A DNA stretch of 12,460 nucleotides from an uncultured Planctomycetota bacterium (GTDB lineage: Bacteria; Planctomycetota; Planctomycetia; Pirellulales; UBA1268). How positions within the stretch are numbered: position 1 is the first letter of the stretch; every line of letters begins with the position of its first letter. The position numbers and the translations under genes are program-made. Of this stretch, positions 1-12,460 are shown one piece after another. Under the pieces are notes generated by a model. That model saw only the letters and a list, made by a program, of their open reading frames with translations, was not told the DNA's origin and ran no database searches. The stretch is taken from NCBI GenBank assembly GCA_905477565.1, contig CAJQGO010000255.1:1-12460 (forward strand), written 5' to 3'.

Positions 1-1637
1 AATTCAAAACGGGTGATCCCATAGCCATCAGCACGTTTCTTTTCGTCGTTTCGGTCTTCAGGATTTGCATAAGCGGCCATAGTAATTTTATTCCCAAGGC
101 CATCTTCATAGTCTCCGGTCCAGGGCAGTGGACTCTCTGGGATTGGATTGGGGCCGGCTTGTTCGTCTTCAGGATGCCACCAGCGTCCATAGATTGTGTT
201 CACAAGAGCCGGTGATGTAAAAGACCATGGACCATCACGGAATTCATCGATGCCATGCTGGACAACAACAGCAAGATGTTGATCGCCACACAGGTGAACA
301 GCTCCGGCCTCTTTCAAAAGACGCAGGGCCTTGTTGCGACCTTTCTGTGGCCATCCGTTGCAATCAAGATCAGCAAGAAGTCGATTATCCGGATTCCCGT
401 GAAGATGGACAGCACCACAAAAGGCCGTCTGAGAAAGAGCTGCTTTGGATCGAACACCCTTCCAGTCATGAGCCCATGTCTTCAAGAAAGCCAGTTGACG
501 ATCACCCAGTAATTTCAGCTCTGGAAGATCAATAGCACTCCGATCATACGACGGGTCATTAATATGATCAGGCCGAGGACCCATTTTTGGAATGGTGCCA
601 TTGGGGCCGGTTTTAAATTTGCGATCTTCTAGAATTGCAAAGTCGACGCCACCAACAATAAGTCGCGTGAAGTACACACCGATATCACCTTTTACTGGTG
701 CGGGATCGACAGGATCGGGAAGATGCGACGTCTGCTGCCGCTGTACCATGTTGACGTAGGACGTGGGATAGAAGTAGCCACCGGTATCTCCAGCGGAAGT
801 ACGTGCCTTGCCACCCCCGGCGCCCCAGAGGTTGCCTTGGCCGACATCATGGTCATCAGGAATTGTCACTGCGGGACGATCCCGAATGATGTCGCGAAAC
901 TGGAGGCCAAACTCAAGCCAGCCGATCGTGTGTTCTGTGTGGCGATACGTTTGATCACCTGCAAAGAATAAAAGATCAGGATCTGCCTCCTTGAGGCCAT
1001 TGATCAGTGCTTCTCGCTGTCCGGGAGTTCGTGATGAATTACAGGACATGACAGCCACACTGATTTCATTTTTCTCAGCAGGGTCCGGCCTAATAACTCC
1101 AGCGAACTCAGCTCGCTCTCCATGCCGAACACGATAGGGTACAGACGTGGTTGCATCCCACTTGGGAATGCGGAACGAAGCATCCCAGCCAGGATAATTG
1201 ACTGTTGCCGCGCCGATTTCTGTCCAGCCGGCTCCGCGATCAACTTCAAGTCGAACCTGATTTGATTCACCTGGTTTGAGTGGAAAGAGTTGGGCTGAAA
1301 GTTTGAGTATTGAGTCAGTTGGTTTGCTGGGGGGGACTGTTACTGTGTAGATCGCAAATGCAATGACTTCATCACGAGGTGCGTTAATCTGAAATGGAAC
1401 AGGCGGACGTCGACGTTTCTTTTTTTTCCCAGTAGCTGGCTGTGTTACCTCATCACCTTGTGCGGAAGGTTTTGTCCACCACTGGCCAGTTGCCCATCCA
1501 TCGAGTGATGGGAATTCATCACCAAACGGCGTCGGATCAAGATGCTGTGGAACAACGTTGTCATCTCCATGGCACAACGAAATGGAACAACTCATTCCAA
1601 GCAGGAGCAAAACAAGATTTTTCGTTGTGGGCAACAT
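1..1637 (-). CDS. PhoD-like secreted metallophosphatase (3' end beyond window)
   Basis: An open frame of 545 codons runs from an ATG at 1637 down through base 1 with no stop, so the C-terminus is missing. Residues 1-24 form a signal peptide (Lys6, then a Leu/Val-rich core), giving an exported enzyme. Residues 80-185 form a beta-rich N-terminal domain, and the metallophosphatase domain starts near 190. It shows SCNSSR with Cys199, AGDQTY with Asp228 and Tyr231, DDHD at 261-264, and CGDQH with Asp452 and His454. Cys199, Asp228 and Tyr231 match the Cys/Asp/Tyr metal ligands known for Bacillus PhoD (Fe3+/Ca2+ phosphodiesterase/phosphatase), so the predicted role is extracytoplasmic phosphoester hydrolysis. 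A Lys/Arg-rich patch lies at 71-77. No in-frame ATG occurs just upstream and the ribosome site is weak. It is divergent from the sulfatase operon. The family call is firm; the substrate is unknown. Confidence 0.9.
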   Translation of the reverse strand, partial: MLPTTKNLVLLLLGMSCSISLCHGDDNVVPQHLDPTPFGDEFPSLDGWATGQWWTKPSAQGDEVTQPATGKKKKRRRPPVPFQINAPRDEVIAFAIYTVTVPPSKPTDSILKLSAQLFPLKPGESNQVRLEVDRGAGWTEIGAATVNYPGWDASFRIPKWDATTSVPYRVRHGERAEFAGVIRPDPAEKNEISVAVMSCNSSRTPGQREALINGLKEADPDLLFFAGDQTYRHTEHTIGWLEFGLQFRDIIRDRPAVTIPDDHDVGQGNLWGAGGGKARTSAGDTGGYFYPTSYVNMVQRQQTSHLPDPVDPAPVKGDIGVYFTRLIVGGVDFAILEDRKFKTGPNGTIPKMGPRPDHINDPSYDRSAIDLPELKLLGDRQLAFLKTWAHDWKGVRSKAALSQTAFCGAVHLHGNPDNRLLADLDCNGWPQKGRNKALRLLKEAGAVHLCGDQHLAVVVQHGIDEFRDGPWSFTSPALVNTIYGRWWHPEDEQAGPNPIPESPLPWTGDYEDGLGNKITMAAYANPEDRNDEKKRADGYGITRFE

Positions 1638-1813
1638 GATCGGCTTTCTTTTCAGAGATGTAATAGAACGGAATTGCGAACATTCATGCAGCCATAAGGT
1701 GCTTCTGTGTGACACTGGATGCAATGACATTTCTTTTCGTTATAAAGGATGTTGCGAATGGGTGCTTACAGAAATTTATTCGTACTCGTTTTTCTTATGG
1801 GGTGTTTTCAGAC
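1638..1813. promoter_or_regulatory. Divergent intergenic region between phosphatase and sulfatase operon
   Basis: These 176 bases lie between the start codons of the two divergent genes and must hold at least part of both promoters. The heptamer TTGCGAA occurs twice, at 1674-1680 and 1752-1758. A weak sigma70-like pair for the plus strand is TTGCGA at 1752-1757 and TTTATT at 1775-1780, 17 bases apart. A TATAAA stands at 1741-1746 without a good partner. No strong promoter, operator palindrome or riboswitch is visible. If the longer GTG start at 1709 is used for the sulfatase, the gap shrinks to 71 bases. Confidence 0.4.
1696..1711 (+). promoter_or_regulatory. Shine-Dalgarno-like AAGGTG before alternative GTG start
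   Basis: AAGGTG at 1696-1701 sits seven bases before a GTG at 1709 that is in frame with the sulfatase-propeller gene and would add 35 residues. This is a better ribosome site than anything before the ATGs at 1814/1817, where only GGGGTG lies, about 11 bases upstream. The longer form would place about 50 mixed residues before the hydrophobic core of the signal peptide, so the shorter start was preferred. The choice is uncertain. Confidence 0.3.
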
Positions 1814-4543
1814 ATGATGGATTACGTGCGAAGAAAATCAAAATATCATTGGAAACGTCACTCACTATCCAGTGTGTTTCTTGGATTTTTCCTTCTGTGT
1901 GTCGCTTTGGCAGCTCAAGCAGAATCAGCACCACCAAATGTGGTGCTGATTCTCTCCGATGATCAGCATTGGCGGGATTATGGCTTTATGGGCCATGAAC
2001 ATCTTGAGACACCAGCTCTCGATCGGCTCGCGTCTGAAAGCCTTGTCTATCCACGAGGATATGTCCCTACAAGTCTCTGTTGTCCAAGTCTCGCATCATT
2101 GATCACAGGTCGTTATCCGCATGAGCATCTGATCGTGGGAAACGATCCTCCGGAAACCCAAGGCATTTCTCGTCGTTCACCTGAAGGTCAAAAACTTTTC
2201 AAAGCAGGACGAGAAAAGATGACCAAAAGGTTTTCCAAGTGGCCGACACTTCCAAAACTTCTGGGTGAGCACGGCTATCGAAGTCTCCAGACGGGCAAAT
2301 GGTGGCAGGGGCATTTTTCACAAGGTGGTTTCGATGAAGGAATGACCAAAGGGTCGCGTCACGGTGATGAAGGCCTGGCGATCGGAAGAAAAACCATGCA
2401 ACCAGTCTTCGATTTCATTGATCGTTGCAGTGACGCCGAGCAACCGTTCTTTGTCTGGTATGCGCCAATGCTGCCACATTCGCCACATGATCCAGAGAAG
2501 TCTTTAGTCCAACACTATGAATCGAAAACCAACAGCATTCATATTGCGAAGTACTGGGGTAATGTTGAGCGGTTTGATACGACTGTAGGCAATCTTGTCG
2601 ATCACTTGGACGCCAAAGGTTTGTCAGAAAATACGCTTGTCCTTTACGTGTGTGACAACGGTTGGATTACGAATCCTGAGAATGGAAAGTATGCAGGGAA
2701 ATCAAAGCGAGCACCCTACGACGGTGGACTGAGAACACCGATCATGCTTCGACAGCCTGGCACGATACAGCCGGGCACAAGCGACTCACTTGCCAGCTCC
2801 CTCGATCTTGTTCCGACTGTATTGGCATGTTGTCAGGTTGCAGCGCCACAGGGTCTGCCAGGAATCAATCTTCTCGATAAAGAAGCTGTTCGTTCCAGAA
2901 AACAGCTCTTTGGTGCCTGCTACGTCCATACACTCGCCGACATTGAAAAGCCGGGAAGAAATCTTCTGTGGAGATGGACAGTCAAAGATATTCCAAATGG
3001 AGACGTCTGGAAACTTATCGAACCAGTCACCCACGGTGTGTCTGGCACCCATGTATTACCACCTGGGGAATCCAGAGTCATTGATCAGGTTTCAAAGGAT
3101 TGCTTTGAACAAGGTATCGTTGAACTGTTTGATATCACCGATGATCCTGATGAAGAAAAAAATGTTGCAACTGCCAACCCCAAGGTCGTCAAGCAACTGC
3201 AGCACGATCTGAATAATTGGTGGCAGCCACAATCGGCATCAGTAGTTCTTGAGCCGGTAGTAACAGCAACCAAAAAACTTCGGGTACTGCCGGTGAAAGA
3301 ACGGCGAAAATCATCCGATCGTTCTGTCTGGCCAAATTGGCGAGGACCCACACTCGATGGTGTTTCATCGGGTAGTGGATACGCAACATCCTGGAGTCAG
3401 GAAAACAATATCAGGTGGCGAGTCCCGCTTCCTGGCCTTGGTGCGAGCACGCCCGCTGTATGGGGAGACACAATCGTGCTGACCTGTGACATCGAAGGCC
3501 ATGACGGAATTTTGTGTGTCGATCGATCTGGAAAAGAATGTTGGCGACAGCAACTTGGTGACATTCGACCGGGTAAACATAAAAAAGCGACAGGGTGTAA
3601 TTCCTCACCAGTCACAGATGGTAACCATGTCTGGGTGTACTTTAAGAGCGGGGAACTGGCGTGCCTGTCACTCACTGATGGTGCCATCGTGTGGAGAACA
3701 AATCTCCAGGAACAGTTTGGTGAGGATACGTTGTGGTGGGATCTCGGGACATCCCCAGTGCTGACAAAGCAGGCAGTTGTTGTTGCTGTCATGCAGACAG
3801 GCCCAAGTTATCTCGTTGCATTTGATCGGCAAACAGGTGACGTTCTCTGGAAACATGATCGCATACTGGATGCTCCAGAGGAGGCAGCACAAAGCTATTC
3901 AACACCCGTTGTTGTTGCTGGGAACGCCGACTGGAATGAGCCAGCTGAGATGCTCATCGTGCTCGGTGCAGATCATGTCACGGCTCATGACGCTGCTGAT
4001 GGACAAGAAATCTGGCGAGTCGGTGGCCTTAATCCTGAGGGTAATACATTCTTTCGTTCCATAGCGTCACCAGTTGTCTCTGGTGAATATGTGATTGCAC
4101 CGTACGCACGCGGGAAGACCGTGACTGCAATACGGCGAGGTGGATCAGGAGATGTGACGGCAAGCCATATTGCCTGGAAGCGTGAGCCGTTGGGTACAGA
4201 TGTGCCAACACCGGCTATTCACGATGGTCGACTGATGATCTGTGGAGATAAAGGGCTGATGTCGTGCCTGGATTTAAAAACAGGTGAAACCATTTGGGAG
4301 GATAGCCTCCCAAAGAATCGAAACAAATTTAGTTCGTCACCAATTATTGTTGATAATCATGTCCTGCTGACTCGTGAAGATGGCCATTCATGGTGTATTG
4401 CATGGCCGGGCGAAAAGGGCGACGCACTCACAATTCTTGGCGAAGGCATGCTTGAAGAAATGACAGTGGCTACGCCTGTCTGTGTTGATGGTGAGATATT
4501 CCTGCGAACACATGATTCACTGTGGTGTATTCAATCCCAATAA
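1814..4543 (+). CDS. Secreted sulfatase fused to PQQ-like beta-propeller
   Basis: The product has 909 residues from the ATG at 1814; ATG 1817 and GTG 1709 are alternatives. Residues 1-36 are a signal peptide with a basic n-region, a core near 18-34 and a likely cut after AAQA. The sulfatase domain (about 39-475) opens with PPNVVLILSDDQ, with metal ligands Asp49-Asp50 and Asp281-Asn282, and a typical YDGGLRTP segment at 302-309. The formylglycine site reads CCPSL (Cys89), so the Arg of the CxPxR motif is Leu. GKWH is replaced by GKWW at 161-164. After a basic linker (484-503), WPNWRGP at 506-512 begins an eight-repeat PQQ-like propeller reaching the C-terminus. The predicted role is sulfate-ester hydrolysis on an exported carbohydrate, with the propeller as a possible binding or scaffold module. 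Hydrolytic activity is less certain because of the two substitutions. It is the first gene of the operon, 33 bases before the ThuA-like gene. Confidence 0.92.
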   Translation: MMDYVRRKSKYHWKRHSLSSVFLGFFLLCVALAAQAESAPPNVVLILSDDQHWRDYGFMGHEHLETPALDRLASESLVYPRGYVPTSLCCPSLASLITGRYPHEHLIVGNDPPETQGISRRSPEGQKLFKAGREKMTKRFSKWPTLPKLLGEHGYRSLQTGKWWQGHFSQGGFDEGMTKGSRHGDEGLAIGRKTMQPVFDFIDRCSDAEQPFFVWYAPMLPHSPHDPEKSLVQHYESKTNSIHIAKYWGNVERFDTTVGNLVDHLDAKGLSENTLVLYVCDNGWITNPENGKYAGKSKRAPYDGGLRTPIMLRQPGTIQPGTSDSLASSLDLVPTVLACCQVAAPQGLPGINLLDKEAVRSRKQLFGACYVHTLADIEKPGRNLLWRWTVKDIPNGDVWKLIEPVTHGVSGTHVLPPGESRVIDQVSKDCFEQGIVELFDITDDPDEEKNVATANPKVVKQLQHDLNNWWQPQSASVVLEPVVTATKKLRVLPVKERRKSSDRSVWPNWRGPTLDGVSSGSGYATSWSQENNIRWRVPLPGLGASTPAVWGDTIVLTCDIEGHDGILCVDRSGKECWRQQLGDIRPGKHKKATGCNSSPVTDGNHVWVYFKSGELACLSLTDGAIVWRTNLQEQFGEDTLWWDLGTSPVLTKQAVVVAVMQTGPSYLVAFDRQTGDVLWKHDRILDAPEEAAQSYSTPVVVAGNADWNEPAEMLIVLGADHVTAHDAADGQEIWRVGGLNPEGNTFFRSIASPVVSGEYVIAPYARGKTVTAIRRGGSGDVTASHIAWKREPLGTDVPTPAIHDGRLMICGDKGLMSCLDLKTGETIWEDSLPKNRNKFSSSPIIVDNHVLLTREDGHSWCIAWPGEKGDALTILGEGMLEEMTVATPVCVDGEIFLRTHDSLWCIQSQ
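3404..4534 (+). repeat. Eight-repeat PQQ-like beta-propeller domain
   Basis: Residues about 531-907 of the sulfatase fusion hold eight degenerate repeats of the pattern [STAP]-[ST]-P-[AVI]-x(n)-hydrophobic strand-x-L-D-x-x-[ST]-G-x-x-x-W. They begin near residues 545, 597, 646, 696, 751, 799, 841 and 886. Clear blade ends include CVDRSGKECW, SLTDGAIVW, FDRQTGDVLW, HDAADGQEIW and LDLKTGETIW. The strand IRWRVPLPG at 533-541 precedes the first blade and could close the ring with the last one. The Trp-containing pattern is that of the PQQ-binding-like/YVTN propeller group. Binding of PQQ itself is not implied. Confidence 0.8.
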
Positions 4544-4576: not shown

Positions 4577-5722
4577 ATGAATACTCGATGTCTGAGATGG
4601 TCTTTCCTTGCCTGCTTGTTCTTCTTTGGTGTGCGCGATGTACGGGCGGCTGAACAGGGAGGACCAGCACGACTTCTCGTTGTGACAGTTACAAAGGGTT
4701 TTCGTCACGGCTCAATTGAAACAGCTGAACCGGTCCTGGAAAAACTCGGCCGTGAGAAGGGTCTTTTCCATGTTGATTTCCTCCGAATGCCTCCGAATCG
4801 ACCACCGCAACCAAGGCGACCTCGACGAGGGAAAAATGTCACAGACGAAAAATGGGCGCAGATTGAGTCGCAGTTCAAAGAACAACAAAAAGTTTTTCAA
4901 AAAGCTGACCAGCCATGGCAACAAGTTTTGCAACAGAAGTTCGCGGTTGCTTTTTCACCTGAATCACTTGCCCAGTTCGACGGGGTTGTCTTTGTCAGTA
5001 CAACTGGTGAGTTACCAATTCCAGACCTTGGAGCCTTCCTCAAATGGATTCAAGACGGCCATGCCTTTATTGGTATTCATGCAGCGAGCGACACACTAAA
5101 AAGTTCAGATGCGTATGTTGAGATGATAGGAGGTCATTTTGCTGGACATCCGTGGACGGCCAAAGGGGAGCATGGATTTGTGAATCATGACCCTACGCAT
5201 CCAGTTGTGAAAATGTTTCCAGAACGATTCCGGTGGAAGGATGAAATCTATCAATATGGTCCACGATATAAACCCGAGAATGTTCGCGTGTTGCTTTCAA
5301 TAGATATGGCCGCCAGTACGCCAAAAAATCCTTGGCATGTACCGGTCTCATGGGTTCGTGACTATGGCCGAGGTCGTGTCTTTTATACAAACCTCGGGCA
5401 TAACGATGAGACCTGGAGCGATGATGCGTTTCAGAAGCACCTGACTGAAGGGACTGCGTGGGCGCTTGGCAGGTTTGATGCACCAAGTAAGGCCAATCCA
5501 TCGATTCAAGCAGCTGAATATCTTCGGAGTGTTGTCGCTGCGGCTGGGGAATTAGACGGCATTGAACACGATGCACTCCGGGCACAAGTGGATGCAAAGA
5601 TAGCGGCTGACCCATCTTGGGCTGTTCAGATGAGGCCGCAAGTTGTTGCGTTGCGGGCACTCAATGGGGAAAAACTGACAACATCACTGAAGAAATTTGT
5701 TGAAGACATCCAACAGGATTGA
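4577..5722 (+). CDS. Secreted ThuA-like domain protein
   Basis: The product has 381 residues. AAGGTA at 4565-4570 lies six bases before the ATG. Residues 1-24 are a signal peptide (Arg4, Arg7, hydrophobic 8-18, likely cut after VRA). The ThuA fold, related to class I glutamine amidotransferases, spans about 30-302. It shows LLVVTVTKGFRH (33-44), FIGIHAASD (164-172), GGHFAGHPW (185-193), DEIYQY (222-227) and PVSWVRDYGRGRVFYTNLGH (256-275), all typical of ThuA proteins. ThuA-like proteins are linked to trehalose and 3-keto-glycoside metabolism, but their chemistry is poorly settled, so a role in handling released sugars is inference. Two additions stand out: a Pro/Arg-rich then Gln/Lys-rich insert at about 71-125, and a helical tail of about 75 residues (305-381) that I do not recognise. 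It lies between two sulfatase genes in the same direction. Confidence 0.92.
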   Translation: MNTRCLRWSFLACLFFFGVRDVRAAEQGGPARLLVVTVTKGFRHGSIETAEPVLEKLGREKGLFHVDFLRMPPNRPPQPRRPRRGKNVTDEKWAQIESQFKEQQKVFQKADQPWQQVLQQKFAVAFSPESLAQFDGVVFVSTTGELPIPDLGAFLKWIQDGHAFIGIHAASDTLKSSDAYVEMIGGHFAGHPWTAKGEHGFVNHDPTHPVVKMFPERFRWKDEIYQYGPRYKPENVRVLLSIDMAASTPKNPWHVPVSWVRDYGRGRVFYTNLGHNDETWSDDAFQKHLTEGTAWALGRFDAPSKANPSIQAAEYLRSVVAAAGELDGIEHDALRAQVDAKIAADPSWAVQMRPQVVALRALNGEKLTTSLKKFVEDIQQD

Positions 5723-5794: not shown

Positions 5795-8700
5795 ATGAAG
5801 CGGCTTCGTCAATCAATTATCTGGATAGGAGTGACATGTTTGATCGTGGCAGGCATGACACAACGAATATGGGCGGCCCCGCCAAATGTGGTCGTCATAC
5901 TGGCTGATGATATGGGGTTTTCCGACCTTGGGTGTTACGGAAGTGAAATAGAAACGCCGAACTTTGATCGACTTGCTCATGGCGGGCTGCGGTTCACGCA
6001 AGGCTACAACACCGCCCGATGTTGGCCGACCCGCGGTGCATTACTCACCGGCTATTACGCCCAGTCAATTCGGCGAGACAAAATGCCTGGGGTGACTGGA
6101 GGAAATCGTGGTGGTCGACCAGAGTGGGCCCACTTGCTACCGGAGCGCCTCGAAGCGGCTGGGTACCGTTCCTATCACAGTGGCAAGTGGCATGTTGATG
6201 GTGACCCCCTTGAACAAGGCTTTGCACACTCTCTACGAATTGAGGGTGGTCAAAATGATTTCTTTGATCCCACCGGTATCACTGTTGATGGCAAGCCTGT
6301 CGAAGAAACAGATCAATTCTATGTGACCACAGCAGTTGGTGAGCATGCAGCGGCGTGTCTGCGTGAACATGCAGAACACCACGGAGATAAACCATTCTTT
6401 AGTTATGTTGCGTTCACGTCACCGCACTTTCCTTTACATGCACCGCAAGACATTATTGAAAAATATACGGCCCGGTATCAGGCAGGGTGGAATGTCATGC
6501 AGCAGGCTCGATATAAGCGGCTTGTGCAAAGTGGCATCATTCATGCGCCCCTTGCGGCAATGGAAGAAGACCTCGGTCCTCCGTATGATTTTCCAGAAGC
6601 ACTTAAAAAACTTGGCCCCGGCGAAGTTAATCGCCCACTTCCGTGGCAGAATCTCACACCAGAGCAGCAGATATTTCAAGCGACCAAGATGGCAATACAT
6701 GCTGCCATGATTGATGCGATGGACCAGGCTGTTGGTGATGTCATGCACCAACTCAAAGCAATGGATGCACTGGAGAACACACTGATTCTCTGCCTCAGTG
6801 ATAATGGCGGGTCAGCTGAAATAATGGTTCGTGGGAAAGGTCATGACCCACACCTTCCAGCTGGTTCTGCAGGGACGTATCTCTGTCTTGGGCCAGGGTG
6901 GTCAAGTTGTGCGAATACACCTTTTCGACGCCATAAAACCTGGGTTCATGAAGGAGGCATTTCGACCAGCTGGATCGTACATTGGCCAGCAGGAATTCCG
7001 TCAAAGAGCGCCTTGCGGGAACAGCCAGTCCATGTTATTGACATCGTGCCAACGGTGCTTGAGTTGGCGGGTGTGAACGAGTCAGAGGAGCGCGCAGATG
7101 AGTCTGAGCCACCGCTGCAAGGTCGAAGTTTTGTGGAATGCCTTACGAACCCTGTCGCACCACCGCCGCACGAAACATTGTGGTGGTGTCACGACGGCCA
7201 TCGGGCAGTTCGACAGAACAACTGGAAACTTGTTGCTGCACGAGATGAGCCGTGGGAACTCTATGATTTGTCGTCAGATCGAACAGAGCAAAACAACTTG
7301 GCACTATCCCATCCTGAGCAGGTCAAACAGCTTGAAAAAGATTGGAATGACCTTGCAACGCAAAACCAACGGCTTGCAGATCTGGATGGCAAGAATAAAC
7401 CTCAGGGAAAGCCGAAAAAGAAAAAGCCAGTAGCAAAAAAACCTGCTGCAAAAAAACAGGCAGTGAGTCAAACTGGTAAGAAGCGGGATGTGCAGAAGGA
7501 CTCACCTCGTCAGTCCCCACCAAATGTTGTGATCGTCTTTACCGATGACATGGGCTATGCCGACCCGGCTTGTTATGGAGGAACGTACGCCCCGACGCCA
7601 AATATCGACAGATTAGCGCGGGAAGGCATCAAACTCACAGATTTTCATGTTGCCCAACCCGTCTGTTCGGCATCCCGAGCAGCGCTACTCACCGGATGCT
7701 ATCCCAATCGTATCGGGATTCATGGCGCGTTGAGTCCGAGAGTGACACATGGTCTTTCGGGTGAAGAAACGACGCTGGCTGAGTTGCTGCGTTCTCGAGG
7801 GTATCGCACAAGCATGGTCGGCAAGTGGCACCTTGGCCATCATCGTCAGTTTCTTCCAACACGGCATGGCTTTGATGAATATTTTGGACTGCCATATTCC
7901 AACGATATGTGGCCGTACCATCCAAGTGCAAAGCCAGGTACGTATCCACCTCTCCCACTTTTTGAAAATGAGAAAGTTATTGATAAGGAAGTCAGTCCCG
8001 AAGATCAGACAACGCTAACTAAGCGATATGCTCAACGCGCTGTCGATTTTCTCAAACGTGCCGGCACGCAAAAAGATGGCCGCCCCTTCTTTCTCTATCT
8101 GGCGCATTCAATGCCGCATGTACCACTTTTTGCAAGTAAAGGCTTTCAAGGAAAAGCGGCCGGTGGTCTGTATGGTGACGTCGTTGCAGAGATTGATGCA
8201 TCTGTTGGATCGGTTCTTAGGTCTCTTGAAGAAACCGGACATCTTGATGACACCCTTGTGCTTTTCACGAGTGACAACGGACCCTGGCTTTCCTATGGCA
8301 ACCACGCTGGTTCTGCCGGGTCCTTCCGCGAAGGGAAGGGGACAACATTTGAGGGTGGGGTACGTGTACCGTGCGTTGCTCGGCTCCCTGGGGTTATCCC
8401 GGCAGGGACAGTCAGTGATGAATCACTGATGACAATAGATCTGTTGCCATCAATTGCCCATCTCACCGGCCAACCATTGAAAACAGATGCTGAGGGTCAT
8501 TGCATCCTGCGTGGGAAAAAGATTGACGGGCATGATCACCTCGATCTTTTTTGTGGTGGAACACGAGCTGCTGATGCGCCTGACACCTATCATTTTTATT
8601 ATAAAAAAAATGAGCTTCAAGCAGTCCGAAAGGGAGACTGGAAACTCTTCTTTCCGCATAGCTACAGAACAATGCAAGGGCAGGAACTAGGTCAGGACGG

Positions 8701-11245
8701 CAAACCTGGAAGATACACCCAGCATAAAATTGGTGAGGAACTCTTTGATCTTTCAACTGATCCAAATGAGACAAAAGATGTTGCCAAGCAGTATCCCAAG
8801 GTTGTCGAACAACTGCGAGCCATTGCTGAAAAATCCAGAGACGACCTTGGTGACAGCCTTCTGAAGCGAACAGGAACCGGCACGAGGCCATCAGGACAGC
8901 TATCAAAAGAAAATGATTCAAAGGCTAACCCATCAAAATCTGCAGGGAAACAAAAGACAATACCCGCTCGATTGGTTTCACACACATCAACACTCTCTGG
9001 ACGTCGCCCAAATATCATTTATGTCATGACAGACGATCAGGGGTACGGTGACATTGCCAGCCATGGCAATCCGGTGTTGAAGACGCCGTTTCTTGACCGG
9101 ATGCGAAAACAGAGTGTGTGTTTAACGGAATATCATGTCAGTCCGACGTGTGCTCCAACTCGAGCAGCACTCATGACCGGTCGCCATGAATTTCATTCCG
9201 GTGTCACACATACCATCCACGAACGAGAGCGGATGGCGCTTTCACAAACAACACTTCCGGAACTCTTGAAAACAGCCGGATACACAACGGGCATTTTTGG
9301 TAAGTGGCATCTTGGTGATGAAGATGCTTACCAGCCGGACAGCCGAGGATTTGACCGAGTCTTCATCCACGGTGGTGGTGGGATTGGACAGAGTTTTTCA
9401 GGGAGTTGTGGTGATGCCCCGGGTAATACATATTTCGCGCCTATGATTCGAAGCGATGGCAGATTTGTCCAGACCCGTGGGTACTGCACCGATATCTTCT
9501 TTCGTGCAGCCGAAACGTGGATGACAGCATGCAAGGAAAAAAACACTCCTTTTTTCTGCTATCTATCGACCAATGCACCACATGGTCCGCTGATCCCTCC
9601 AGCATCTGGTGATGAACAGTATCGGACAGCGCTTAAGGAAGCTGGAATAGAAAACGTAAAACAAATTGATCGCGTCGCACCGTTCTATGCGATGGTGGAA
9701 AACATCGATACGAATATGGGGCGACTGCTTCGCATGATTGAATCACTTGGGATTGCAGAAAATACATTGATTGTTTTCTCAACAGATAATGGTTCAGCAG
9801 CGGGAAGTAGCTTTTTCAATGCGGAAATGCGTGGGGCAAAGAACTCGCCGTATCGGGGTGGAACACGCGTCCCGTCATTCTGGAAATGGAAAAGTGTTCT
9901 GCCAGAAGGCATTGATGTCTCACACGTCACAGCACACATCGATGTGTTGCCGACACTCTGTGAGCTCGCAGGAGTAGACGTACCAGAAGCAGTCGAGAAG
10001 AAAATTGAAGGTCGCAGCTTGGTGCCATTGCTGATCAACCAAAAAGCTGACTGGCCAGACCGCCCCTTGGTTACCCATCAGGGTCGATGGAAACGTGGTA
10101 AAGCTGCTGAAAATGCCTACAACAATTGTCGCATCCGAGAAGGTAGATGGAGCTTGGTCAATACAAAAAACAAACCAGACGCATGGGAGCTCTATGACAT
10201 CGATTCTGACCCAAGTGAAGAGCATGATATTGCTTCAGAGCATCAAGATGTTGTTCACCGCCTAGCGACTACCTATGAGAAATGGTGGGAAAGTGTCCAG
10301 CCAGACCTCGTCAATGAAGACGTTGACGGGCCCCCAGAGAACCCATTTAAAACAGCCTACTGGAAGCAGTTTGGACCACGGCCAACACATGAAGACGTGA
10401 GTTACGGTAAGCACCCAAAACAAAAGCTTCATTTTTGGAAAGCACCCTCAGCCACTGCAGAGAATCCTGCACCGCTTCTCTTTTACATTCATGGTGGAGG
10501 ATGGACTGGTGGAAACCGCTTGAGTGGTTTATCGCAGAATCTAAAACCGGCACTTGAAGCCGGGATATCAGTCGCATCAATTGAGTACCGTTTTGTAGAC
10601 GAAGCTGAAGGAATGGAGCCTCCTGTCAAAGCACCTCTTACTGACGCTGCACGGGCACTCCAGTTTGTTCGCAGAAAAGCATCAGCATGGCATCTTGATC
10701 CGAATCGGATTGTCGCAGCTGGTGGATCGGCTGGAGCGTGTACAAGCCTATGGCTTGCGTTTCACGATGAGATGGCAGACCCCACAAGTGATGATCCCAT
10801 TGCTCGTGAATCAACTCGGTTGACTGCTGTTGCTGTCAGTGGTGCACAAACATCACTGGACCCAAAGCAGATGAAGGAGTGGACTCCAAATAGCCACTAC
10901 GGAGGCCATGCATTCGGTATTCCCATTCTTGTATCAGAGAGTGACCGACGGACTGGTCGTTTTACGAGATTTTTTGAATCGCGAGAGTCGCTTTTACCAT
11001 GGATTCAGGAATACTCTCCGTATGCACTTGTGACGGCGGATGACCCTCCTGTGTACATGATTTACAACAACAAGCCAGCACTTGGGCACGATGCAAAAGA
11101 CCCGACTCATACAGCTAACTTCGGGGTCAAATTAAAAGAACGACTTGATGCGGCACAGGTACCCTGTGAATTAGTCTATCCAGATGCACCTCATGTGCAT
11201 CATGCGACTATGCCAGAGGCTGTGATTGATTTTCTCGTCCCATAA
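5795..11245 (+). CDS. Triple-sulfatase/esterase polyprotein
   Basis: This is one uninterrupted frame of 1816 codons, with GGAGA at 5786-5790 just before the ATG. A single signal peptide (residues 1-27, cut after IWA) exports the whole chain. Sulfatase A (28-530) has metal Asp38-Asp39 and Asp336-Asn337, formylglycine site CWPTR (Cys76) and KWH at 131-133. A Lys/Ala/Pro-rich linker (533-570) leads to sulfatase B (575-1020), with Asp584-Asp585, Asp827-Asn828, site CSASR (Cys624) and GKWHLG. A polar linker (1021-1070) leads to sulfatase C (1071-1528), with Asp1080-Asp1081, Asp1331-Asn1332, site CAPTR (Cys1119) and GKWHLG. The C-terminal alpha/beta-hydrolase (1530-1816) has HGGGW (1566-1570), nucleophile Ser1645 in GGSAG, probable Asp1750 and a His among 1800-1803. 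It resembles carbohydrate acetyl/feruloyl-type esterases. The predicted role is stepwise desulfation and deacylation of a sulfated polysaccharide outside the cytoplasm. Usual sulfatases have one domain of 450-600 residues. Each domain looks complete. Substrates are unknown. Confidence 0.95.
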   Translation: MKRLRQSIIWIGVTCLIVAGMTQRIWAAPPNVVVILADDMGFSDLGCYGSEIETPNFDRLAHGGLRFTQGYNTARCWPTRGALLTGYYAQSIRRDKMPGVTGGNRGGRPEWAHLLPERLEAAGYRSYHSGKWHVDGDPLEQGFAHSLRIEGGQNDFFDPTGITVDGKPVEETDQFYVTTAVGEHAAACLREHAEHHGDKPFFSYVAFTSPHFPLHAPQDIIEKYTARYQAGWNVMQQARYKRLVQSGIIHAPLAAMEEDLGPPYDFPEALKKLGPGEVNRPLPWQNLTPEQQIFQATKMAIHAAMIDAMDQAVGDVMHQLKAMDALENTLILCLSDNGGSAEIMVRGKGHDPHLPAGSAGTYLCLGPGWSSCANTPFRRHKTWVHEGGISTSWIVHWPAGIPSKSALREQPVHVIDIVPTVLELAGVNESEERADESEPPLQGRSFVECLTNPVAPPPHETLWWCHDGHRAVRQNNWKLVAARDEPWELYDLSSDRTEQNNLALSHPEQVKQLEKDWNDLATQNQRLADLDGKNKPQGKPKKKKPVAKKPAAKKQAVSQTGKKRDVQKDSPRQSPPNVVIVFTDDMGYADPACYGGTYAPTPNIDRLAREGIKLTDFHVAQPVCSASRAALLTGCYPNRIGIHGALSPRVTHGLSGEETTLAELLRSRGYRTSMVGKWHLGHHRQFLPTRHGFDEYFGLPYSNDMWPYHPSAKPGTYPPLPLFENEKVIDKEVSPEDQTTLTKRYAQRAVDFLKRAGTQKDGRPFFLYLAHSMPHVPLFASKGFQGKAAGGLYGDVVAEIDASVGSVLRSLEETGHLDDTLVLFTSDNGPWLSYGNHAGSAGSFREGKGTTFEGGVRVPCVARLPGVIPAGTVSDESLMTIDLLPSIAHLTGQPLKTDAEGHCILRGKKIDGHDHLDLFCGGTRAADAPDTYHFYYKKNELQAVRKGDWKLFFPHSYRTMQGQELGQDGKPGRYTQHKIGEELFDLSTDPNETKDVAKQYPKVVEQLRAIAEKSRDDLGDSLLKRTGTGTRPSGQLSKENDSKANPSKSAGKQKTIPARLVSHTSTLSGRRPNIIYVMTDDQGYGDIASHGNPVLKTPFLDRMRKQSVCLTEYHVSPTCAPTRAALMTGRHEFHSGVTHTIHERERMALSQTTLPELLKTAGYTTGIFGKWHLGDEDAYQPDSRGFDRVFIHGGGGIGQSFSGSCGDAPGNTYFAPMIRSDGRFVQTRGYCTDIFFRAAETWMTACKEKNTPFFCYLSTNAPHGPLIPPASGDEQYRTALKEAGIENVKQIDRVAPFYAMVENIDTNMGRLLRMIESLGIAENTLIVFSTDNGSAAGSSFFNAEMRGAKNSPYRGGTRVPSFWKWKSVLPEGIDVSHVTAHIDVLPTLCELAGVDVPEAVEKKIEGRSLVPLLINQKADWPDRPLVTHQGRWKRGKAAENAYNNCRIREGRWSLVNTKNKPDAWELYDIDSDPSEEHDIASEHQDVVHRLATTYEKWWESVQPDLVNEDVDGPPENPFKTAYWKQFGPRPTHEDVSYGKHPKQKLHFWKAPSATAENPAPLLFYIHGGGWTGGNRLSGLSQNLKPALEAGISVASIEYRFVDEAEGMEPPVKAPLTDAARALQFVRRKASAWHLDPNRIVAAGGSAGACTSLWLAFHDEMADPTSDDPIARESTRLTAVAVSGAQTSLDPKQMKEWTPNSHYGGHAFGIPILVSESDRRTGRFTRFFESRESLLPWIQEYSPYALVTADDPPVYMIYNNKPALGHDAKDPTHTANFGVKLKERLDAAQVPCELVYPDAPHVHHATMPEAVIDFLVP
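5873..7384 (+). other. Sulfatase domain A of the polyprotein
   Basis: Residues about 27-530 form a complete S1-type arylsulfatase-like unit, from APPNVVVILADD to the usual C-terminal WELYDLSSDRTEQNNL segment. The formylglycine site is RCWPTRGALLTG with Cys76 at bases 6020-6022, a full CxPxR match, so conversion to formylglycine and activity are expected. An insertion at about 225-290 lies between the HFPLH segment and the second metal site. Confidence 0.9.
7385..7516 (+). other. Basic low-complexity linker with two A-heptamers
   Basis: Residues 531-574 are rich in Lys, Pro and Ala and join sulfatases A and B. The bases carry two seven-A runs, 7435-7441 and 7450-7456, both phased as A_AAA_AAA (GCA AAA AAA) in the reading frame. 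A -1 shift at either would reach TAA at 7477-7479, and a +1 shift after the first would reach TGA at 7464-7466. Either would release sulfatase A alone. The phasing is seen directly; actual frameshifting is unproven. Confidence 0.5.
7517..8854 (+). other. Sulfatase domain B of the polyprotein
   Basis: Residues about 575-1020 form a complete arylsulfatase A-like unit beginning SPPNVVIVFTDDMGYAD. The modification site is VCSASRAALLTG with Cys624 at bases 7664-7666. Ala replaces the Pro of CxPxR, a variant known among bacterial sulfatases. The second metal motif is SDNGP (826-830), and the C-terminal ELFDLSTDPNETKD segment is typical. It has no signal peptide of its own and no internal start codon with a ribosome site before it. 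Confidence 0.88.
9005..10378 (+). other. Sulfatase domain C of the polyprotein
   Basis: Residues about 1071-1528 form a complete sulfatase beginning RPNIIYVMTDDQGYGD, with site TCAPTRAALMTG (Cys1119), GKWHLGDEDAYQP and the Gly-rich HGGGGIG. It ends in the YEKWW...VNED...NPFK..YWKQFG tail that closes free-standing members of this sulfatase type. The presence of the native tail shows that the whole enzyme was joined to the esterase, not a fragment. Confidence 0.88.
10382..11242 (+). other. C-terminal alpha/beta-hydrolase (carbohydrate esterase-like) domain
   Basis: Residues about 1530-1816 start with THEDVSYG and KLHFWKAP, the usual N-terminal strands of this esterase group. HGGGW (1566-1570) forms the oxyanion hole and GGSAGA holds nucleophile Ser1645 (bases 10727-10729). 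The acid is probably Asp1750 in TADDPPVYM, and the base is one of His1800, His1802 or His1803 near the C-terminus. A complete catalytic set suggests activity on acyl groups, most plausibly O-acetyl groups on the polysaccharide desulfated by the upstream domains. The acyl group is inferred. Confidence 0.88.
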
Positions 11246-11278: not shown

Positions 11279-12460
11279 ATGACATTGACAGTATGGCGAT
11301 TCGGATTGGCTCTTGTTGCAACACTTTTGTCAGCCCGTGCATTTTCAGAAGAACATAACGCAGACAAACGCCCCAACATTCTTTTTATTATTGTTGATGA
11401 TCAATCACCGTTTGATTTCAAATTCTATAATCCATCTTCAACGCTCAACGCTCCATGCATTGAGAACCTGGCTCGGGAGGGAATGGTATTTGATGCGGCG
11501 TACCACATGGGTTCATTTTCTGGCGCGGTCTGTTCACCGAGTCGTCATATGGTGATGTGTGGACGAACAGTGTGGCATCTGCCGATCGGGCCAAAGAAGG
11601 CACGCCGTGAACAGGGGGAACCACGACAGGCACGTGTTGCACCACATTGTCCGCCAGAACTTGAGTCAAACACACTTGCTGCCGTGTTCAATCGAGCTGG
11701 TTACGACACCATGCGGACATGCAAGCGTGGCAATAGTTATGAAAAAGCGAATCAGCAATTTACAGTCCGAAATGATGCGACCAAGCGGGGCGGTACAGCA
11801 GAAAAAGGGAGTCAATGGCATGGTGATCAGGTCATTGATTTTTTGACAGACCGGGAAAAGTCTGGTGATGAAGATCCTTTTCTTATCTATTTTGGATTGT
11901 CGCATCCTCACGATACACGTGATGGGACACCTGAATATCTGGCTCATTATGGGGCGACAAATCACACGAATAAAAAAGAACTTCCGGCGGCACATGACAA
12001 CCAGCCACCCGTGCCTTCAAACTGGTTGCCACATCATCCATTCGATAACACGCATATGGATGTTCGTGATGAGGTATCGGTCAGCGGTGTCTGGGGAAAT
12101 CGTGACCCACGGACTATTCGCAATGAAATTGGACGTGAATATGCGTGTAGTGAAAACATTGACGCGCAGGTAGAACGGGTTCTCCAGAAACTTACTGCCA
12201 TGGGTGAACTCGAAAATACATGGATTTTCTATACATCTGACCATGGCATTGCGATTGGTCGTCATGGCCTACAAGGAAAACAAAATCTCTATGAGCACAC
12301 CTGGCGGGTGCCACTCATTGTAAAAGGTCCGGGTGTTCGCCCCGGTAGTCGGATGCCCGGCAATACATATCTTGGTGATACGTTAGCAACATTGTGTGCT
12401 ATTACAGGTGTGACTCCACCTCCAACAGATGAGGGGAAAAGTTTTCTTCCCGTTCTCGAA
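11279..12460 (+). CDS. Secreted sulfatase (3' end beyond window)
   Basis: The visible part is 394 codons from ATG 11279, with AAGGA at 11267-11271 seven bases upstream. Residues 1-22 form a signal peptide (hydrophobic 8-18, likely cut after AFS). The S1 sulfatase domain opens RPNILFIIVDDQ with metal Asp40-Asp41. The formylglycine site is CSPSR at 85-89 (Cys85), followed by HMVMCGR, where the usual Thr-Gly-Arg is Cys-Gly-Arg. The second metal motif is TSDHG (Asp321-His322), with LQGKQNLYEHTWRVPLIVKG at 331-350. The Asp-His pair and this segment resemble choline-sulfatase/iduronate-sulfatase-like members rather than the DNG type used by the other four domains. Activity is expected; the substrate is unknown. 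It starts 33 bases after the polyprotein stop with no terminator between, so it is probably co-transcribed. Confidence 0.94.
   Translation, partial: MTLTVWRFGLALVATLLSARAFSEEHNADKRPNILFIIVDDQSPFDFKFYNPSSTLNAPCIENLAREGMVFDAAYHMGSFSGAVCSPSRHMVMCGRTVWHLPIGPKKARREQGEPRQARVAPHCPPELESNTLAAVFNRAGYDTMRTCKRGNSYEKANQQFTVRNDATKRGGTAEKGSQWHGDQVIDFLTDREKSGDEDPFLIYFGLSHPHDTRDGTPEYLAHYGATNHTNKKELPAAHDNQPPVPSNWLPHHPFDNTHMDVRDEVSVSGVWGNRDPRTIRNEIGREYACSENIDAQVERVLQKLTAMGELENTWIFYTSDHGIAIGRHGLQGKQNLYEHTWRVPLIVKGPGVRPGSRMPGNTYLGDTLATLCAITGVTPPPTDEGKSFLPVLE

Follow-up and report, generated by a model that had tools for sequence, protein, structure and literature searches.

Three mutually distant sulfatases and an esterase predicted in one planctomycete chain, within an operon of constant module order and varying gene boundaries

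Bacteria of the PVC superphylum are known for their very numerous sulfatases, and in the Kiritimatiellales a single sulfatase occurs fused with GH10, GH32 or a GH29 fucosidase (PMC6388578). The account of two planctomycetes from Porphyra, P1 and P2, describes a two-sulfatase fusion gene, explained there as the fusion of adjacent genes, together with other multi-domain sulfatase genes carrying esterase/lipase or glycoside hydrolase domains (PMC4807772). In Formosa agariphila, the protein P36 consists of a GH78 rhamnosidase and an S1_25 sulfatase, for which consecutive steps have been demonstrated (PMC8511951; PDB code 6hr5). Given the two-sulfatase and sulfatase-esterase proteins published for P1 and P2, the opinion expressed in the original prediction, that sulfatases are normally single-domain enzymes, is too strong for planctomycetes. 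The gene presented here extends this series, with three mutually distant and apparently intact S1 sulfatases and an esterase sharing one predicted reading frame behind one signal peptide.

The window, i.e., the whole stretch of 12,460 nucleotides that was analysed, is itself a complete contig, C255. The genome to which it belongs is estimated at 62% completeness and consists of 364 contigs with 1.85 Mb in total. The features recognized along the window are collected in Table 1. A Pfam scan of the 1816-aa frame yields three PF00884 stretches and a C-terminal PF20434 BD-FAE domain, and the domain limits used throughout the analysis are residues 28-525 for D1, 570-1045 for D2, 1066-1515 for D3 and 1516-1816 for D4. 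The C-terminal tail of D3 (ENPFKTAYWKQF) extends to about residue 1526 (nt 10372).

Table 1. Coordinates of the features of the window, with the four-domain gene, its parts and its neighbours.
Feature	Position	Strand	Remarks
Divergent PhoD-like gene	3..1730	-	Pfam just below or without cut-off; same position in several relatives
SulfN (atypical sulfatase, CCPSL/GKWWQG) fused to a PQQ/BamB-like beta-propeller	1709..4543	+	separate genes in some relatives
ThuA-like protein	4577..5722	+	PF06283
Four-domain sulfatase-sulfatase-sulfatase-esterase gene	5795..11245	+	1816 aa, ATG start, single frame without stop
N-terminal signal peptide, residues 1-27	5795..5875	+	cleavage site placed by eye
D1, S1 sulfatase	5876..7369	+	formylglycine Cys76 in CWPTR; nearest PDB 7all and Pseudomonas AtsA 1hdh (S1_4)
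Linker A, rich in Lys/Pro/Ala	7370..7501	+	
D2, S1 sulfatase with Sulfatase_C	7502..8929	+	formylglycine Cys624 in CSASR; nearest PDB human ARSA/GALNS
Linker B	8930..8989	+	directly 5' of the D3 start motif RRPNI
D3, S1 sulfatase	8990..10339	+	formylglycine Cys1119 in CAPTR; nearest PDB the S1_19 carrageenan sulfatases
D4 as analysed, BD-FAE-type alpha/beta-hydrolase esterase	10340..11242	+	core from about residue 1527
Sulfatase SulfDn	11279..12460	+	ATG at 11279, runs off the contig end; fused to D1-D2 in L005/L109

Each of the domains D1, D2 and D3 displays the sulfatase fold, the C-x-[PA]-x-R motif and the metal-site residues (Asp-Asp, Asp-Asn, Lys/His). The CSASR motif of D2 contains an Ala where a Pro is usual, a replacement which is permitted by the C-x-[PA]-x-R rule. 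The fourth domain possesses an alpha/beta-hydrolase fold with a Ser-Asp-His triad made of Ser1645, Asp1769 and His1803, an oxyanion motif HGGGW and the sequence GGSAG at residue 1643. Because the three sulfatases share only 25-29% pairwise identity, against about 50-61% between D2 or D3 and stand-alone relatives outside the family, the internal duplication of one sulfatase was ruled out as their origin. The tentative placement of D1 in S1_4, of D2 in S1_1/S1_5 and of D3 in S1_19 follows the nearest solved structure only, and these structures, which include carrageenan and galactose/GalNAc sulfatases, offer too weak a likeness to name the glycan.

The residues of the active sites are almost invariant. 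Conservation was read from rows that cover 80% or more of the domain at an identity of 50% or more, the window being included and the relatives being taken from the best 120 of 459 matches. In these rows, D1 conserves its metal, formylglycine and catalytic residues in 118-119 of 119 cases (118 of 119 for the formylglycine Cys and its Arg), D2 in 62/62 and D3 in 112/112, and the triad of D4 is present in 90/90. Nei-Gojobori dN/dS ratios calculated against L001 and L002, two loci of the same genus, amount to 0.06-0.09 in each of D1-D4; a third relative, L006, was too divergent in most regions. All four domains are thus under purifying selection, and the three sulfatases of the chain, which differ from each other, are apparently active.

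With respect to export, the hydrophobic 19-mers of the chain are strongest at starts 3-9 (the stretch of residues 3-27), the linkers are devoid of any, and the hydrophobicity scan disclosed no internal signal peptide in the 1816-aa chain. Four in-frame starts occur near the linkers, and a simple test for re-initiation inside the gene, which provides weak evidence, detected no Shine-Dalgarno-like stretch in front of them. Several features of the original prediction find support, namely a single uninterrupted frame of 1816 codons, which recurs in many assemblies, three different S1 sulfatases, a Ser-Asp-His esterase and one signal peptide. The need for three formylglycines in one chain also stands, with intact motifs at the three cysteines and a genuine formylglycine-generating enzyme (FGE) encoded in the genome. 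Two PF03781 matches were found in the window genome, one of them clearly an FGE, which matches 6muj and 2q17 at E 9e-77 and has the Cys pair in alignment, and no anaerobic maturase reached the cut-off in this 62% complete genome. The FGE (L107, G000:C351) exhibits, by eye, an apparent N-terminal membrane anchor, which would put the formation of formylglycine outside the cytoplasm, on the outer face of the membrane. As a whole, the window genome contains 62 sulfatase matches in 60 frames, 14 of which measure at least 700 aa.

An architecture search for three sulfatases and an esterase, as proposed with the original prediction, retrieved the order D1-D2-D3-D4 in 35 of the best 120 relatives out of 459 matches, with 54-95% identity per domain; two of the 35, P0029 and P0037, lack part of one domain. 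The same 120 relatives include 52 D1-D3-D4, 16 D1-D2-D3, seven D1-D2 and seven D1-D3 proteins, together with the rarer D1-D2-D4 (2) and D2-D3-D4 (1), these counts considering only the module kinds D1-D4 at 50% identity or more. Two of the proteins, P0001 and P0002, represent clusters of 426 and 91 member sequences, and the frame therefore recurs in other assemblies. Longer chains also occur, P0012 with five sulfatase motifs and P0116 with five sulfatase stretches, and relatives of the genes lying upstream of the four-domain gene in the window are fused on in P0048 (a PQQ-type propeller at the N-terminus) and in P0060 (a ThuA domain). Where relatives are named, it is for instance as Pirellulales or Planctomycetaceae bacterium. 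Within the family of the window, a D1 search (E <=1e-130) gave hits in 61 of 72 genomes, with 64 places in all; of these 64 D1 frames, 53 reach at least 1000 aa, and the remaining 11 comprise seven whole stand-alone D1 genes and four frames that run off contig ends. By comparison of sequences, the predicted four-domain protein is real, under selection and widespread in one planctomycete family, and not unique to the window. A plasmid home is not indicated, all 833 matching records of the plasmid collection being below 60% identity.

Outside the family, relatives of D4 (at 1e-40) were found in at least 123, and relatives of D3 (at 1e-110) in at least 142, of the 296 genomes of the order. Among the matches listed from other families, most frames are of roughly single-gene length, with 300-600 aa in the case of D4 and 450-660 aa in that of D3. 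D3 and D4 are fused in a 931-aa frame of another family of the order (G053), and a D3-like domain is joined to another sulfatase in two genomes of other families (G193 and G228). Separate adjacent genes occur in G119 (D4 then D3) and in G004 (a D3-like gene, 51%, then a D4-like gene, 39%), both outside the family. The D4-type esterase also stands behind a 3-keto-disaccharide hydrolase domain (PF06439), to which it is fused, in another family of the order (L097, 9154-10770, minus strand), and behind a weak match to a beta-galactosidase (GH42, PF02449, E 1.2e-6) in the own family (L102, 6963-9095, G104).

Flanking sequence was retrieved for 62 of the 64 D1 places, i.e., all but the window itself and G257:C271. 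The modules in it were typed by BLAST and bear the name of the best hit with at least 45%, SulfDn and Sctpsr probably belonging to one family. On the D1 strand, 53 of the 62 loci carry at least two kinds of module, the three loci fetched for D4 (L096, L099, L105) being left out of the order counts. A single order, namely SulfN, Scsptr, PQQ, ThuA, Scnpsr, D1, D2, D3, D4, Scapsr, SulfDn, Scvpsr, Sctpsr, D2b, Scspar, GDSL and dehydrogenase, fits 1088 of 1090 ordered module pairs in these 53 own-family loci and all 859 pairs between different genes. The figure of 1088 results from a local search for the best order (1058 with greedy ordering), and 100 gene shuffles, refitted by the same local search, gave a mean of 0.669 and a maximum of 0.714. 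Related genomes are counted repeatedly in these numbers, which are not independent trials, and many loci are cut by contig ends.

The gene boundaries within this order are variable. As neighbours in the 53 loci, SulfN-PQQ are fused in five cases and separate in seven, ThuA-Scnpsr 3/10, Scnpsr-D1 7/9, D3-Scapsr 2/3, D3-Scvpsr 2/4 and D4-Scapsr 1/13. The joints among D1, D2, D3 and D4, namely D1-D2 (25/0), D1-D3 (25/0), D2-D3 (16/0) and D3-D4 (25/0), are fused in 91 of 91 cases, those of D1-D2-D3 never being seen unfused. The question of whether relatives possess separate genes at the linkers, raised along with the original prediction, accordingly has a double answer. No such separation exists among neighbouring modules in the 53 loci, and the modules do occur apart in three genomes. 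In G059, D1 stands alone (a 578-aa frame), D3 together with a Scvpsr-like sulfatase lies ~10 kb off and D4 follows behind another sulfatase ~14 kb beyond the D3 gene, all on one strand; in G082, D3 and a Scnpsr-D1 gene are found on different contigs, and G199 has D3 without D1.

On a D1 tree of 61 rows, built by a quick method and with 19 of 58 inner branches unresolved, D2 and D3 each require at least 7 changes, D4 at least 9, an N-terminal Scnpsr at least 6 and an additional sulfatase at the C-terminus at least 5. The fixed stoichiometry of activities is not supported in the form foreseen, since relatives gain or lose D2, D3 and D4 as well as further sulfatases and only the order is constant. 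Across the loci compared, the order of the modules, as typed from their sequences, remains constant while gene boundaries and module content vary. A verrucomicrobial locus (L012, 8554-27760) contains eleven separate sulfatase genes on one strand according to module matches, with D2-like (53%), D3-like (52%) and Sctpsr-like (66%) members; its genes stand in another order, which gives no ground for taking it as the ancestral cluster.

The way in which such fusions arise can be followed in a few loci. In L005 (the same locus as L109, in G112, a genome of the same genus), D1 and D2 match their counterparts in the window with 91-93% identity, but the third position is taken by SulfDn, with 92% identity to the gene that lies downstream of the four-domain gene in the window. 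By subtraction from the alignment, 2,359 bp present in L001 are absent from L005, and these hold D3, D4 and the start of SulfDn with its signal peptide. The number 2,359 equals 1 modulo 3, which offsets the frame difference between the two genes in L001, and the switch point falls within the codons for RPNI, at a place where CGnCCnAATATT is common to D3 and SulfDn. In G112, D3 was not found at 1e-110 and the best D4 is only 58% identical. The L005-type fusion is not one misassembly, because the corresponding protein clusters, P0040-P0046, have many members, the largest 111 and 52. A further genome of the same genus (L008/L110, G281) has a gene of 1112 aa with D1-D2 alone, after which comes the GDSL-dehydrogenase gene, D3, D4 and SulfDn being missing.

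A comparable case is L116, which compared to L094 lacks about 2.5 kb with D4 and the Sctpsr gene, and where five residues separate the end of D3 from the RPNV motif of Scspar, whose signal peptide is absent. The loss of D4 is the simpler reading, because the nearest rows on the D1 tree carry D4. The sequence GPAENPFKTAYDRQF just before this joint was examined as a remnant of D4 and rejected; it is the C-terminal tail of D3, also found in D3 genes without D4, and therefore gives no direction by itself. The D3 gene of G199 (L165, 8327-9991, minus strand) has a tail that leads into the opening residues of another sulfatase, RPNIVLFLAD, after which the frame is lost, which corresponds to a decayed fusion or a sequencing error.

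More generally, fused sulfatases begin at a conserved [RP]PN motif and lack a signal peptide. Of 99 sulfatase modules that come first in their gene, 88% have a hydrophobic leader in front of them. The same is true of 1 of the 98 internal modules that were scored, modules with no recognisable start motif (50) having been dropped and four linkers being too short for scoring. The predicted fusion points are thus located at the N-terminal [RP]PN motif of the sulfatases, with the inner signal peptide absent, and selection for export and frame would yield the same pattern of joints under any recombination process.

The reading that we favour, with a probability of roughly 0.8, is that the gene arose by fusion within one segment of a planctomycete sulfatase operon that is itself conserved. 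Its product would be exported once, and the domains would jointly strip one glycan. A chain of about 200 kDa would leave the cytoplasm once, through Sec, and FGE would turn its three cysteines into formylglycine. The domains would fold as beads on flexible linkers, D3 and D4 being almost linkerless, and, acting together on one glycan or oligosaccharide that bears multiple decorations, would remove from it an O-acyl group and sulfate esters of several different kinds. The bare sugar would then be handled by the ThuA protein, the beta-propeller and the cytochrome-linked dehydrogenase of the operon. The fusion step itself would consist of a deletion which takes out the stop codon of the upstream gene together with the signal peptide of the gene that follows it. 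Several observations weigh against this reading. Modules are often lost, so that a fixed set of activities is not needed; seven of the 64 D1 places are whole stand-alone genes; and D1 and/or D3 lie apart in G059, G082 and G199.

The neighbouring genes provide some indications as to the pathway. Downstream in L001, a 1708-aa gene (16773-21899) combines a sulfatase, a GDSL esterase, a PVC-type CxxCH dehydrogenase-like part, HEAT, an azurin-like domain and cytochrome c, and its counterpart in L006 is devoid of the sulfatase part; a sodium:solute symporter gene comes next in L001. Hydrolysis of 3-keto sugars has been described for DUF1080/PF06439 proteins (PMC9007349). Taken together, the ThuA and propeller neighbours, the 1708-aa gene, the symporter and the link between D4 and a 3-keto-disaccharide hydrolase suggest that sulfate and acyl groups would be stripped in the periplasm before the oxidation of the sugar. 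No glycoside hydrolase or lyase was detected among the neighbour proteins scanned with Pfam, which also weighs against the favoured reading. SulfN, the N-terminal half of the 1709-4543 gene, is present in 25 of the 53 operon loci, many of them cut by contig ends. Its site reads CCPSL, without the Arg, in 20 of 26 copies (CGPSL in one, the pattern leaving five unparsed), and all 26 copies show GKWWQG where canonical sulfatases carry GKWH; SulfN may be a pseudo-enzyme or a different hydrolase.

Other explanations have been weighed against the fused operon segment. The chain could be a polyprotein, exported once and then cut within the Lys/Pro/Ala-rich linkers into separate enzymes, which would save signal peptides and deliver equal amounts. 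The linkers fit this idea both by composition, K, R, P, A, S, G, Q and T accounting for 81% of linker A and 85% of linker B in the 35 four-domain relatives (among the best 120 of 459), and by their faster evolution, with dN/dS values of 0.32-0.36 for linker A and 0.20-0.89 for linker B against L001 and L002, over short stretches of 22-44 codons. However, hardly any linker exists at the D3-D4 joint, where the tail of D3, which is also kept in D3 genes without D4, nearly abuts the start of the mature D4, and processing into separate enzymes is judged unlikely. As for an assembly or frame artefact, it might be feared from a short contig in a 62% complete metagenome-assembled genome of 364 contigs, but the same four-domain frame in many assemblies and the purifying selection visible at the codon level make it extremely improbable. 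The shorter D3-D4 frames of G219 and G207 (907 and 841 aa) point the same way; they were considered as split genes and rejected, as they run off contig ends.

A more serious competitor, to which we grant a limited but real chance, sees the fusions as mere by-products of deletion in a crowded operon, accumulated by a neutral ratchet, with domains that work alone and a joint that is harmless and brings no gain. Fusion points that vary among relatives, the frequent loss of modules, the separate adjacent genes of G119 and G004 and the L005 deletion, which merely joined whatever stood downstream, all speak in its favour. It accounts less readily for the neighbouring D1-(D2)-D3-(D4) modules, which are never separate genes in the 53 loci, and for the recurrence of the D3-D4 fusion in another family of the order (G053). 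Beside these alternatives, a more ambitious proposal, which we regard as speculative and rather doubtful, holds that selection keeps the order and not the composition, operon and chain forming one ordered line of sulfate- and acyl-removal steps, an extracytoplasmic assembly line. It is with the same reserve that cuts at many joints and dropped steps might be considered as allowed in such a line, and a changed place as forbidden.

Fusion of operon genes, as favoured here, gives these proteins a wider interest. Related sulfatases in one order, encoded separately, joined in twos or threes, or linked in chains of as many as five, form a natural series, which makes the effect of fusing glycan-desulfating enzymes on their activity testable. 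They also indicate one route of origin for such fusions, i.e., deletions that join genes at the shared N-terminal sulfatase motif and drop the inner signal peptide. No description of a triple sulfatase-esterase chain, or of a constant order with fluid boundaries, was found in the open-licence literature.

Characterized enzymes of S1_4, S1_1/S1_5 and S1_19 are not known to contain more than a single sulfatase domain. The SulfAtlas subfamilies S1_4 (AtsA), S1_1/S1_5 (ARSA, GALNS) and S1_19 (carrageenan sulfatases) share the active-site motifs of D1, D2 and D3, respectively, and the last one also the fold of D3. The carbohydrate esterases 6xyc, 6tkx and 6mly (PDB codes), the latter fused to a GH43, are only 18-19% identical to D4. 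Like P36, the window chain would associate desulfation with a second activity of one pathway, but P36, as described, combines one sulfatase with one glycosidase and is biochemically proven, whereas the window chain is known from its sequence. Sulfatase gene fusions within the PVC superphylum are shared with the Kiritimatiellales, the multi-sulfatase chain being found here and not among the fusions described in PMC6388578. The closest resemblance is with the fusion gene of P1 and P2 (PMC4807772), since the window gene also unites two or more unrelated sulfatase domains, probably coming from adjacent genes, and since its operon neighbours are either fused or separate in relatives. In contrast to the two sulfatases described there, three sulfatases (up to five in relatives) are accompanied here by an esterase, within an operon whose order is constant and whose gene boundaries shift, and the P1/P2 account lays stress on the turnover of cluster content where a constant order is observed here. 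Two-sulfatase and sulfatase-esterase fusions of planctomycetes were thus already known, and what appears as new, judging from the predicted proteins, is the triple chain and the constancy of an order whose gene boundaries are fluid.
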